A stretch of 7,677 nt of DNA, taken from positions 1 through 7,677 of the forward strand of contig JAHEZC010000112.1 of the NCBI GenBank assembly GCA_023251275.1, given 5' to 3'. The position numbers and the translations under genes are program-made. Below, piece after piece: positions 4,812 through 7,376 of this stretch. How positions within the stretch are numbered: position 1 is the first letter of the stretch; each line of letters begins with the position of its first letter. Source of the stretch: Parafilimonas sp. (GTDB lineage: Bacteria; Bacteroidota; Bacteroidia; Chitinophagales; Chitinophagaceae). The notes beneath the pieces were generated by a model that was not told the DNA's origin, searched no databases, and saw only the letters and a list, made by a program, of their open reading frames with translations.

Positions 4812-5687
4812 ATGCCAACAGTAAAAACAGGCTTGGTGCAAATGACTTGCACAAATGACAAACAGGGCAATATTGATAAAGCCATTTCAAAAATTAAAGA
4901 TGCGGCGGCGAAAGGCGCGCAGATAGTTTGCCTGCAGGAATTATTTGCATCATTGTATTTCGGGGATGCGGAAGACTATGAAAATTTTAAGCTGGCAGAG
5001 CCCGTTCCCGGGCCTTCCACGGCATTATTCAGCAGCCTTGCTGCAGAACTAAACATCGTGATCATCGCCTCGTTGTTTGAAAAAAGAGCGCAGGGTATTT
5101 ATCACAATACCACAGCAGTGCTGGATGCGGACGGAACTTATCTTGGTAAGTATCGCAAAATGCATATTCCTGATGATCCTTCTTACTACGAAAAATTTTA
5201 TTTCACACCAGGCGATCTCGGGTACAAAGTTTTCAAAACAAAATATGCAACTGTTGGTGTTTTGATCTGCTGGGATCAATGGTATCCCGAAGCAGCACGT
5301 ATCACTGCATTGATGGGCGCAGAGATATTATTCTATCCCACAGCAATTGGCTGGCATGCTTCCCAGGATGAAGCTACCAATGCAGAACAATACAATGCAT
5401 GGCAAACCATTCAACGCAGTCATGCAATTGCCAATGGCGTGCATGTAGTGAGTGTAAATCGTGTTGGATATGAGCAGGACGGCAATATGAAATTCTGGGG
5501 TGGTTCATTTGTCAGCAATCCCTTCGGAACACTTTTGTATAAGGCATCTCACGAAAACGAAGAAGTGGCTGCAATAGAAATTGAATTAAGTAAATCTGAT
5601 GTTTACAGAACACATTGGCCATTCCTGAGAGACAGGAGAATTGATTCCTATCAGCCGATTACAAAAAGGTTCATTGATGGGGAGTAA
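4812..5687 (+). CDS. aguB: N-carbamoylputrescine amidase
   Basis: A 291-residue cytoplasmic nitrilase-superfamily (carbon-nitrogen hydrolase) enzyme. It hydrolyses N-carbamoylputrescine to putrescine, CO2 and ammonia, the last step of the agmatine route to polyamines. The Glu-Lys-Cys triad is visible: E43 in CLQELF, K116 in KYRKMHIPDD, and C153 in VLICWDQWYPEAAR. Other family marks are the DDPSYYEKFYFTPGD stretch at 121-135, IGWHASQDE at 179-187, and the C-terminal RTHWPFLRDRRIDSY at 266-280, which is characteristic of this subgroup. Length is normal for the family. The ATG at 4812 directly precedes the conserved first strand (VKTGLVQMTC). The partner enzyme gene aguA lies downstream, separated by the four-helix-bundle gene and its repeats. 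The first array begins only 3 nt after the aguB stop codon, which is itself followed at once by TAG. Confidence 0.95.
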   Translation: MPTVKTGLVQMTCTNDKQGNIDKAISKIKDAAAKGAQIVCLQELFASLYFGDAEDYENFKLAEPVPGPSTALFSSLAAELNIVIIASLFEKRAQGIYHNTTAVLDADGTYLGKYRKMHIPDDPSYYEKFYFTPGDLGYKVFKTKYATVGVLICWDQWYPEAARITALMGAEILFYPTAIGWHASQDEATNAEQYNAWQTIQRSHAIANGVHVVSVNRVGYEQDGNMKFWGGSFVSNPFGTLLYKASHENEEVAAIEIELSKSDVYRTHWPFLRDRRIDSYQPITKRFIDGE

Positions 5688-5689
5688 TA

Positions 5690-5737
5690 GTCGGGAAAGT
5701 CGGGAAAGTCGGGAAGATCGTAAGTAATTTCTATAGT
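5690..5737 (+). repeat. Left repeat array and inverted-repeat arm of the four-helix-bundle cassette
   Basis: Nearly three tandem copies of GTCGGGAAA (5690-5716) start 3 nt after the aguB stop. On the other strand the unit reads (C)TTTCCCGA, the same motif as in the arrays downstream. The stretch 5690-5718 matches the reverse complement of 6162-6188 at 24 of 29 aligned positions with two 1-nt gaps. The similarity continues inward through TAA and TTTCT (5721-5732), which align with the complement of 6150-6161. The remaining 50 nt up to the gene are A/T-rich and hold two isolated motif fragments, GACTCCT (5738-5744) and CGGACTT (5751-5757), in the orientation of the right arrays. Confidence 0.75.
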
Positions 5738-5789
5738 GACTCCTGGCGCTCGGACTTATTTTTAATTTTAATTAATCAAACTTTTTTCT

Positions 5790-6143
5790 ATGCCATTTAA
5801 ATTTGAAAAACTTATTGTCTGGCAAAAGGCCCTTGATCTTTCTGCAACTGTTCATGAAATTGCGATAAAGTTTCCGAAAGAAGAATTATACATTCTTACT
5901 TCGCAAAAAAAGAGAGCAGCGGATTCTGTTTCATTAAATATTGCTGAAGGTTCTACCGGGCAATCAAATGCTGAGCTTAAGCGGTTCCTGGCAATTGCAT
6001 TAAGATCAGACATTGAGGTAGTTGGATGCATTTTTATTGCACAAAAAAGAAACATGATCAGCCGGGAAGATTTTAATAAAATATATTATGCCTGTGAAGA
6101 AATCCTGGTGATGATAAATGCGCTTCGCAATTCAATGAAATAA
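5790..6143 (+). CDS. Four-helix-bundle protein (S23/Avd-like family)
   Basis: A complete 117-residue protein of the small four-helix-bundle family (PF05635/TIGR02436). That family is known from ORFs within 23S rRNA intervening sequences and is related to Avd, the accessory protein of diversity-generating retroelements. Hallmarks are FEKLIVWQKALDL at 5-17, FPKEELYILTSQKKRAADSV at 28-47, the core SLNIAEGSTGQSNAELKRFL at 48-67, and a last amphipathic helix at about 91-115. Predicted helices are at about 8-27, 34-54, 59-88 and 91-115. Basic residues around 40-42 (KKR) fit nucleic-acid contact. The family forms pentamers in Avd; its cellular role outside retroelements is unknown. No reverse transcriptase or variable repeat is present here. 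The gene is intact, uses an ATG after an A/T-rich leader, and is flanked by inverted arrays. A near -7 box (TATTTTTA, 5757-5764) may give it its own promoter. Confidence 0.9.
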   Translation: MPFKFEKLIVWQKALDLSATVHEIAIKFPKEELYILTSQKKRAADSVSLNIAEGSTGQSNAELKRFLAIALRSDIEVVGCIFIAQKRNMISREDFNKIYYACEEILVMINALRNSMK

Positions 6144-6144
6144 A

Positions 6145-6176
6145 ATGATCAGAAAATTAAAATCTTCCGGACTTTC
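6145..6176 (+). repeat. 32-bp direct repeat, copy 1
   Basis: This 32-bp stretch begins ATGATCAGAAAATTAAAATC and runs into the array unit CTTCCGGA. It is repeated without a mismatch at 6258-6289, 113 nt away. It is also the right inverted-repeat arm facing the left array. It starts 1 nt after the four-helix-bundle stop codon. Confidence 0.9.
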
Positions 6177-6255
6177 TGACTTTCGGACTCCCCATCTTTC
6201 AGTCTTCCAGACTTTTCGTCTTCCCTACTCCTCACTCAGTAACTCATCAAAATAA
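6145..6255 (+). CDS. Possible 36-aa leader ORF encoded by the repeat array
   Basis: An ATG 1 nt after the four-helix-bundle stop codon opens a 36-codon frame ending in TAA at 6253-6255, 2 nt before the aguA ATG. Its first 11 residues, MIRKLKSSGLS, are identical to those of the aguA product because both starts lie in the 32-bp direct repeat. The rest is translated array (Ser, Thr, Leu, Phe and Pro rich) with no domain. It is probably not a functional protein. The stop-start spacing would nevertheless allow translational coupling from the four-helix-bundle gene through this ORF into aguA. Whether it is translated cannot be told from sequence. Confidence 0.3.
   Translation: MIRKLKSSGLSDFRTPHLSVFQTFRLPYSSLSNSSK
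6164..6235 (+). repeat. Right array 1: degenerate 8-bp tandem units
   Basis: Eight consecutive 8-bp units lie in exact register from 6164 to 6227: CTTCCGGA, CTTTCTGA, CTTTCGGA, CTCCCCAT, CTTTCAGT, CTTCCAGA, CTTTTCGT and CTTCCCTA. They end in CTCCTCAC. The consensus is about CTTYCNGA. The first three units are complementary to the left array at 5690-5718. The 8-nt period and lack of spacers exclude a CRISPR array. Confidence 0.8.
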
Positions 6256-6257
6256 TT

Positions 6258-6289
6258 ATGATCAGAAAATTAAAATCTTCCGGACTTTC
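6258..6289 (+). repeat. 32-bp direct repeat, copy 2 (contains the aguA start codon)
   Basis: Perfect copy of 6145-6176. Its first three bases are the aguA ATG, so codons 1-10 of aguA and the first two bases of codon 11 are repeat sequence. Identity stops after the second CTT unit begins (CTTTCT versus CTTTCC), which suggests that a longer duplication has since diverged. Confidence 0.9.
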
Positions 6290-7376
6290 CGTCTTTCCGA
6301 CTTTCGGACTCTTTACAACTTCCGCACTTCCCGTCTTTCCGACTCCTCATCAACTCGGTTATTATTTTCCCGCAGAATTTGCACCGCATATAGCTACCTG
6401 GCTAAGCTGGCCGCATAAAGAAGCAAGCTGGCCGGGAAAAATTGAAAGGATATTTCCGGGCTATACTTTATTTATAAAATATTTATCGCAAAGTGAAAAT
6501 GTCCGTATCAATGCGAATGATGAAGCGATGAAAGAATTTGCTTTACAAAAAATTTCGGAAACAGGGGCTGATATTAATAACATTGAATTTTTCTTTCATC
6601 CCACCAATGATGCATGGTGCAGGGATCACGGGCCTGCCTTTCTTATTAATCCTCATACCGAACAGAAAAAAATTATTGCTGACTGGAATTATAATGCCTG
6701 GGGCGGAAAATATCCGCCTTATGATAAAGATGATGTGATACCCACATTGATTGCAAAGCATTATCATATTCCTGTATATTATCCCGGGATAATCATGGAA
6801 GGAGGTTCAGTTGATTTTAACGGGAAAGGCACTGTAATAACCTCCGCCTGTTGTTTGCTGAATAAAAACCGCAATCCGCATCTCGATCAGCAACAAATTG
6901 AAGAATATCTTATTCACTTTTATGGTGTTGAGCAGGTATTGTGGGTAGATGAGGGCATTGCGGGTGATGATACAGACGGGCATATTGATGATACAGTTCG
7001 ATTTGTAAATGAAGATACCGTGATTGCAGTGATCGAAGAAAACAGGAATGATGAGAATTATGCATTACTGCAAAAAAATTTACAGCAACTGAAACAAATG
7101 CGGTTACTGAATGGCAGTCAATTAAATATTATTGAACTGCCTATGCCTGAAGAAGTAATCTATGAAGGACAAAGATTGCCTGCTTCTTACGCCAACTTTT
7201 ATATCTGCAATAAATATGTGATCGTTCCAACATTTCGCTGTGCAAAAGATGAAAAAGCATTACAGATCATTCAGCAATGCTTTAATGACCGCGAAGTGAT
7301 CGGAATTGATTCAACAGATATTATCTGGGGGCTTGGGAGCTTTCATTGTTTGAGCCAACAGGAGCCGGAAGTGTAA
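6258..7376 (+). CDS. aguA: Agmatine deiminase (agmatine iminohydrolase) with repeat-derived N-terminus
   Basis: A 372-residue cytoplasmic enzyme of the peptidyl-arginine-deiminase-like (PAD_porph, PF04371) family. It converts agmatine to N-carbamoylputrescine and ammonia, the step before AguB. The conserved protein starts at about residue 30 with TPHQLGYYFPAEFAPHIATWLSWPH. The substrate-binding NDAWCRDHGP is at 117-126, DWNYNAWGGKYPPYD at 142-156, MEGGSVDFNGKG at 180-191, and the catalytic histidine motif DTDGHIDD at 238-245. The nucleophile is C364 in GLGSFHCLSQQEP. Relatives usually have GGGNIHC there, so the loop is slightly unusual. Residues 1 to about 29 are translated repeat array, unlike the short N-termini of relatives. 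No other ATG, GTG or TTG occurs in frame before the conserved block, so the ATG at 6258 is the only standard start. The ATG follows the leader ORF stop by 2 nt. Confidence 0.93.
   Translation: MIRKLKSSGLSVFPTFGLFTTSALPVFPTPHQLGYYFPAEFAPHIATWLSWPHKEASWPGKIERIFPGYTLFIKYLSQSENVRINANDEAMKEFALQKISETGADINNIEFFFHPTNDAWCRDHGPAFLINPHTEQKKIIADWNYNAWGGKYPPYDKDDVIPTLIAKHYHIPVYYPGIIMEGGSVDFNGKGTVITSACCLLNKNRNPHLDQQQIEEYLIHFYGVEQVLWVDEGIAGDDTDGHIDDTVRFVNEDTVIAVIEENRNDENYALLQKNLQQLKQMRLLNGSQLNIIELPMPEEVIYEGQRLPASYANFYICNKYVIVPTFRCAKDEKALQIIQQCFNDREVIGIDSTDIIWGLGSFHCLSQQEPEV
6277..6350 (+). repeat. Right array 2: 8-bp units inside the aguA coding region
   Basis: Units CTTCCGGA, CTTTCCGT, CTTTCCGA and CTTTCGGA (6277-6308), a 10-nt interruption, then CTTCCGCA, CTTCCCGT, CTTTCCGA and CTCCTCAT (6319-6350). 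The order of the first units and the closing CTCCTCA match array 1, which supports duplication of the whole block. In the aguA frame it encodes SGLSVFPTFGL and ALPVFPTP. Because the unit is 8 nt, gain or loss of one unit would shift the reading frame. Confidence 0.8.

Follow-up and report, generated by a model that had tools for sequence, protein, structure and literature searches.

Layout of the aguB–aguA junction

The window, i.e., the whole stretch of 7,677 nucleotides that was analysed, is the entire contig C334 of a Parafilimonas sp. draft genome with 645 contigs. The upstream operon gene, an N-carbamoylputrescine amidase-like aguB (positions 4812–5687, + strand; PF00795, E-value 1.9e-58), has TIGR03381 as its best NCBIfam match at 313 bits, which is under the 410-bit cutoff of that model, and ends with a stop codon at 5685–5687. 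It is followed by a 5′ arm of tandem GTCGGGAAA/GTCGGGAAG units (5689–5718, + strand), by a leader whose second half is AT-rich (5719–5789, + strand), and by a four-helix-bundle gene of 117 aa (5790–6143, + strand; stop codon at 6141–6143), hereafter called FHB. Inverted units then follow in two copies of a 3′ arm. Copy 1 (6145–6232, − strand) carries CTTYCSGA-type units from 6164, located downstream of an incomplete duplicate of the aguA start, and copy 2 (6258–6350, − strand) overlaps the aguA start as an in-frame N-terminus; 6145–6189 and 6258–6302 are 93% identical over 45 nt, i.e., the 3′ array is duplicated. The agmatine deiminase-like aguA frame (6258–7376, + strand; PF04371, E-value 8e-117) has PRK13551 as its best NCBIfam match (297 bits, under the cutoff of 483 bits), and about its first 30 residues are array-coded, provided that the ATG at 6258 is used. 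Across aguB–aguA junctions, the median number of residues ahead of the GYYF core of AguA was 27 with FHB (5 of 7 loci measurable) and 9 without (25 of 28).

The best arm pair, 5689–5718 against 6275–6302, reached a complementarity score of 17 (direct orientation: 7) and exceeded all of 500 dinucleotide shuffles, the maximum of which was 13.5. In the window, no Rfam family reached its gathering score, and neither PADLOC nor PHROGs gave a match. A preliminary description of the window had located FHB at the aguB–aguA junction and flanked by inverted arrays, with the GTCGGGAAA repeats starting 3 nt past the aguB stop and the complementary array 21 nt past the FHB stop. Direct reading of the sequence agrees with this arrangement, with the first unit at 5690 (third nucleotide) and CTTCCGG units from 6164, and the inverted flanks are those that no shuffle equalled. 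The inner inverted match that had been described was recovered as 5704–5723 against 6157–6176 (20 nt, 85% complementary) but is surpassed by the pair given above, and the 3′ array, for which an end at 6289 had been given, extends to about 6350.

The FHB protein

Genes of the PF05635 family are known from intervening sequences (IVSs) of 23S rRNA and as Avd in retroelements, and Avd, a relative of FHB, binds nucleic acids; we know of no role proposed for PF05635 genes beyond rRNA inserts and diversity-generating retroelements (DGRs). FHB belongs to PF05635 (108.5 bits; curated cutoff 33.8) and to TIGR02436, the IVP/S23 family (99.5 bits; cutoff 24). Its AlphaFold model consists of four helices (pLDDT 94) and has a 2GSC-type fold, the nearest solved structures according to Foldseek being 2GSC (TM-score 0.95) and 2RLD, and DGR Avd (8UB7/4DWL) was matched at a TM-score of about 0.8 with E-values of 0.08–0.16 and 5–9% sequence identity. 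PF05635 was the sole domain matched in the cassette protein, in which no catalytic domain was found. As there was no reverse transcriptase among the seven window ORFs scanned (contig of 7.7 kb), the locus was not classified as a DGR. PF05635 was present in 90 of 118 genomes drawn across Bacteroidota, and a relative of the window FHB in at least 65 of 98 genomes drawn from the family of the window. FHB evolves under purifying selection (median dN/dS of 0.14 in 22 unsaturated pairs); some copies contain in-frame stops (L051, L055, and L061).

Complementary flanks at FHB loci

For the comparison of flanks, 110 FHB loci were taken from the upper part of the matches listed, with some entries (fragments and others) skipped, and nine of these loci were dropped for a short frame or a missing flank, leaving 101 that were scored. 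Inverted arrays also flank other FHB genes: of the 101 family loci, 86 had complementary flanks (score of at least 12), whereas 12 reached this score when the flanks were compared in direct orientation. The same score was attained by 5.1% of the 2020 mismatched pairs and, among 81 other genes located in these loci, by 4. The remaining 15 loci scored below 12. Outside the family of the window, the threshold was reached by 16 of 30 FHB loci (direct orientation 4 of 30, mismatched pairs 2.5%), and in the named loci by 57 of 75 (direct orientation 10 of 75), for which the mismatched control (45%) was unusable, as the majority of these loci lie at the same junction. One relocated relative (L050) was without inverted arms (score 7), and L055 had units in both orientations. 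An arm motif common to all FHB loci of one genome, i.e., a genome “dialect,” was rejected on account of near-background complementarity: scores of at least 12 were obtained by 85% of flanks within their own locus, by 5% between different sites of the same genome, and by 3% between different genomes and sites. Energies computed with RNAduplex for 150-nt flanks were not stringent enough and were set aside (43 of 101 loci under the 5th percentile of mismatched pairs).

Operon junctions and site recurrence

The 110 loci occupied 51 sites, 17 of which had two or more loci (among the matches listed; neighbouring genes were assigned by a simple longest-ORF choice). Recurrent sites were argC–argD (17 loci), pepP–pssA (10), and aguB–aguA (7), and further leuA–leuB, atpD–atpC, rfbB–rfbA, hemB–hemL, and rpoB–rpoC, where all site names other than aguB and aguA are a reading of the neighbouring sequences. 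FHB had the same direction as both neighbours in 94 of 110 loci. In the 77 loci with both neighbours co-directional that were measured, the arms fill the junction: the median gap is 4 nt between the upstream stop and the 5′ arm and 5 nt between the 3′ arm and the downstream ATG, and the arm core is 27 nt long; in 23 of the 77, the 3′ arm extends into the downstream frame. In five loci (L084, L105, L110, L117, and L119), both neighbours have the same orientation and FHB lies on the opposite strand; by eye, these neighbours are parts of an ABC exporter operon. On the FHB tree, the 17 site groups needed 19 changes, with 16 being the minimum possible and 53.7 the mean of shuffled assignments (quick search, 122 columns, many open forks), so that each FHB subfamily mostly keeps to one junction.

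Empty sites, scars, and apparent residence at aguB–aguA

Adjacent aguB and aguA were found in 35 genomes, with FHB between them in 7 and absent in 28, the tightest FHB-less junctions having no more than about 20 nt between the aguB stop and the aguA start. Relatives thus have pairs both with and without the insert, and FHB is not a fixture of this place in all of them. The preliminary description had proposed a small arm–FHB–arm cassette that inserts at operon junctions; these insert-free junctions and the 110 loci at 51 sites (among the matches listed) are in line with the cassette, but its presence at aguB–aguA has mainly the look of a long-term resident instead of a fresh insert. Of the 80 best named loci (best 80 of 410), 55 lie at this junction, and the named aguB–aguA loci span Chitinophagaceae, Sphingobacteriaceae, Cytophagales lineages, and Weeksellaceae. 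No target-site duplication or fresh insertion was seen at aguB–aguA or at the Mucilaginibacter site described below, where no close strain pair was available and the flanks had diverged.

In two FHB-less junctions (L193 and L195), a piece of the 3′ arm is retained at the aguA start (by eye), and these scars indicate losses. An inverted repeat better than 100 of 100 shuffles was detected in 4 of the 22 FHB-less junctions long enough to be tested; these four are L189, L198, and L202, which resemble inverted arrays of other units with no gene between them, and L196, which resembles a plain terminator-like hairpin and not an array. Genomes with FHB at aguB–aguA were spread over the host tree, on which its presence needed 6 changes, compared to a mean of 6.5 after shuffling. 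For 49 loci, FHB shared 13 of 46 splits with AguB+AguA, compared to 15 of 46 shared by AguB and AguA, and in AU tests of the same loci the FHB data rejected the host trees and the AguB and AguA data rejected each other's trees as well. Deep branches were unresolved in this comparison, and groups were shared within genera (Pedobacter, Mucilaginibacter, and Epilithonimonas groups were common to both trees). Frequent homing into aguB–aguA was rejected, since FHB shares about as many splits with the operon genes as AguB and AguA share mutually; horizontal entry may nevertheless have occurred. At present, the cassette at this junction has the appearance of a settled resident with repeated losses.

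At a second junction, in Mucilaginibacter (among L316–L347), the full cassette was present in L316, L319, and L325, arms without the gene in, e.g., L321, L323, and L324, arrays of a different unit in L320 and L327, and a short site without either in L340; these states were assigned by eye, and 13 of 31 loci without the other neighbour were left out. At L326, there seems to be another small frame between such arms (by eye).

Site-specific subfamilies (19 changes for 17 recurrent sites, minimum 16), within-genus groups common to FHB and the operon genes, and a dN/dS of about 0.14 would also be expected if FHB were a host regulator of its resident operon and the arms were control sites. We consider this improbable, because FHB is missing from 28 of 35 aguB–aguA junctions, scars and decayed copies occur, and the 51 sites (among the matches listed) include, by reading of the neighbours, rpoB–rpoC, argC–argD, and leuA–leuB.

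Arm pairing at the RNA or DNA level

The co-directional placement of most FHB loci and the membership of FHB in the protein family of rRNA IVS proteins would also suit an RNA element resembling an IVS, in which the arms would pair in the operon mRNA, the FHB frame would be looped out, and RNase III would excise it. According to the available part of the source, the IVS of Coxiella is closed by a terminal stem of 28 bp, is cut by RNase III, and carries heptamer repeats at the start codon (PMC4990558). The folded cassette RNAs also close arm-to-arm, with a median of 38.5 pairs compared to 13 with a foreign 3′ flank; this folding follows from complementarity alone. Against such an element, arm mismatches of the G.U-tolerant types were not in excess of the A.C types (119 vs. 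121; 335 vs. 381 with looser scoring), the named set leaned the opposite way with looser scoring (126 G.U-type vs. 163, p 0.03), the RNA fold of the window had a z-score of only −1.27, and some copies lie against their neighbours or between divergent ones. Selection at the RNA level via compensatory G.U pairs was thus not chosen as the best explanation for want of an excess, and an IVS-like RNA element was retained as an unlikely alternative. The missing G.U excess favours recognition of the arms as DNA.

The arm unit tracks the FHB clade

At unrelated junctions, too, the sequence of the arms goes with the FHB clade. Between different junctions, the mean 6-mer cosine of flanks was 0.078–0.081 at less than 40% FHB identity, 0.126 at 60–70%, and 0.203 at 70% or more, compared to 0.192 at the same junction, and the trend with identity was reached in none of 300 permutations. 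The unit type of the window, hereafter aguBA-type, was found in 47 of 54 named aguBA loci and in 1 of 94 other family FHBs; at named other sites it occurred in 11 of 21 loci as filed, or in 9 of 18 after removal of three with aguB upstream. For a second FHB clade, a unit of the GTC-ATAG type recurs at other junctions, including Runella and L303 (by eye). The latter, on a metagenome contig of Candidatus Schekmanbacteria, encodes an FHB 61% identical to that of the window between inverted arms with a score of 31.5, and may represent cross-phylum transfer or misbinning.

Dispersed arrays without the gene

All 9 genomes with the aguBA-type FHB clade contained at least one match to the aguBA-type unit, as did 24 of the 89 others; the unit of the second clade was matched in all 10 genomes with that clade and in 18 of the 88 others. 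The arms of the cassettes themselves are counted here. Single matches are at the level of the reversed control pattern, which gave 0–4 matches in most genomes (aguBA-type survey) and up to 310 in one genome (survey of the second unit), and therefore genomes with at least six matches were also counted: 5 of 9 vs. 7 of 89 for the aguBA-type unit (p 0.001) and 9 of 10 vs. 7 of 88 for the second (p 7e-8). Matches to the aguBA-type pattern ranged from 0 to 107 per genome. Some genomes of the clade had a single match only (G007, G010, G021, and G066), and many matches were found in genomes without the aguBA-type FHB clade (G099 with 97, G094 with 55, G098 with 54, and G044 with 35), of which G098 had no match to the window FHB among the matches listed. 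G099, G094, G098, and G088 had 54–107 unit matches each, three of the four being without an aguBA-type FHB.

Of 29 array loci returned, 8 were pairs in FHB order within 150 nt, 4 were pairs in the opposite order, 1 was an FHB locus, and 16 were unpaired. Twenty stretches of 0.8–2.4 kb around dispersed copies in other genomes contained FHB in no case and units in FHB order in 14, which is no rate because the stretches were hand-picked, several of them for listed opposite-strand pairs; in 11 of these 14, the units were separated by less than 50 nt. Gene-less hairpins of the aguBA-type unit were present in G088, G097, and G105. In the genome of the window itself, arrays were found on C318, C434, and C557, none of which is among the FHB contigs, and one gene-less hairpin was identified (L013). 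FHB is thus flanked by its own repeat, which is dispersed as hairpins in the same genome, along with half arrays and opposite-order pairs. Two arrays of the aguBA-type unit in a single orientation (L008 and L015, same genome) seem to lie inside reading frames. The preliminary description had held that arrays occurring across the genome without a link to FHB genes would speak against its cassette: arrays apart from FHB do exist, on the three contigs and in the 20 stretches, but array and FHB clade are associated and not unlinked.

GxxExxY genes with similar arms

PF13366 (GxxExxY) genes of the window's family had inverted arms with a score of at least 12 in 21 of 29 loci (among L157–L186), compared to 10 of 29 in direct orientation and 8% of mismatched pairs, and consequently arms of this kind are not exclusive to FHB. 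By reading of the neighbours, GxxExxY and FHB share two junctions, rfbB–rfbA and sdhA–sdhB. By eye, some of the armed PF13366 genes are at operon junctions with nuo, sdh, and rfb neighbours.

These shared arms and junctions are what would be seen if the arrays were a general junction repeat with its own mover, between the arms of which FHB and GxxExxY genes were passengers, and the abundance of arrays in some genomes without that FHB as well as the apparent other frame at L326 point in the same direction. Since the arm unit tracks the FHB clade over junctions and genomes, and FHB is under purifying selection, we regard mere passengers as rather unlikely, less so than a host regulator and slightly more so than an IVS-like RNA element.

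Interpretation and comparison with known systems

We assign a probability of about 0.5 to the following reading: the gene and its two inverted arrays are one cassette with a unit that tracks the FHB clade, and the protein is predicted to recognise this unit in DNA and likely spreads or keeps it, as RAYT does for REPIN. FHB would bind the repeat unit of its own clade, recognition would take place at the DNA level, and the protein would drive copying of the repeat, for which it would need a partner enzyme because it has no known catalytic domain. The Pfam name of PF13366, PDDEXK_3, makes a nuclease a natural idea for such a partner, and one may exist. It is likely that the gene and its repeat constitute a single repeat-spreading system, either selfish or tamed, with a protein without known cutting activity. 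By analogy, the best reading would be a gene–repeat partnership of the REPIN/RAYT kind with FHB in the place of the transposase. More tentatively, and with greater doubt, PF05635 proteins in general might be trans-acting partners of phylum-wide junction hairpin arrays, each clade reading its own unit of 7–9 nt and moving repeats without a transposase domain of its own, and rRNA IVSs and DGR Avd might be specialised branches.

The tie between clade and repeat offers a testable claim on PF05635 function, namely that the protein binds that unit. If the cassette reading is true, it would add a system analogous to REPIN/RAYT in which no transposase is known, would account for many short periodic arrays in Bacteroidota operon junctions (rpoB–rpoC and atpD–atpC by reading of the neighbours), and would suggest a possible origin for rRNA intervening sequences. 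Searches of the open-licence PMC literature brought up no paper that describes operon-junction cassettes in which PF05635 genes lie between inverted arrays.

The likeness to REPIN/RAYT, as described in the available parts of the sources, includes a gene flanked by its partner repeat, with different protein groups having different repeats, and gene-less hairpins that are dispersed, with repeats also in genomes lacking the gene (PMC8049555, PMC8266576, PMC3733652). RAYT genes are described as vertically inherited in the accessible text of PMC8049555, to which the within-genus groups shared by FHB and AguB+AguA may correspond. RAYT is, however, a HuH tyrosine transposase, whereas FHB is a PF05635 helical bundle and therefore not a member of REPIN/RAYT, although it would work like one. 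The FHB arms are tandem units of 7–9 nt instead of single palindromes, and copies are usually fewer (0–107 unit matches per genome compared to 69–235 REPINs in E. coli, the latter from the part of PMC8049555 available).

With the IVS of 23S rRNA and its S23/IVP gene, the cassette shares the protein family, complementary ends around the gene, and, going by the accessible part of the Coxiella report, short tandem repeats by the start codon (PMC4990558); it differs in its position between protein genes instead of within 23S rRNA, and in arms without an RNA-strand signature. DGR Avd, to which PF05635 is linked in the portion of PMC10053308 available, has the same fold as FHB but little sequence identity, as given above. 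TAACTGA heptamer arrays of Beggiatoaceae and five Bacteroidetes are likewise short-unit arrays beside start codons, but are direct and of one fixed heptamer (with one inverted case), and the available text names no linked PF05635-family gene (PMC4679880). The BrickBuilt MITE of Porphyromonas gingivalis is also an intergenic repeat with inverted ends from Bacteroidota; it is a 23-nt minisatellite with no gene inside in the part of the description available (PMC4596501), whereas the arms of the FHB cassette are arrays and enclose a gene.
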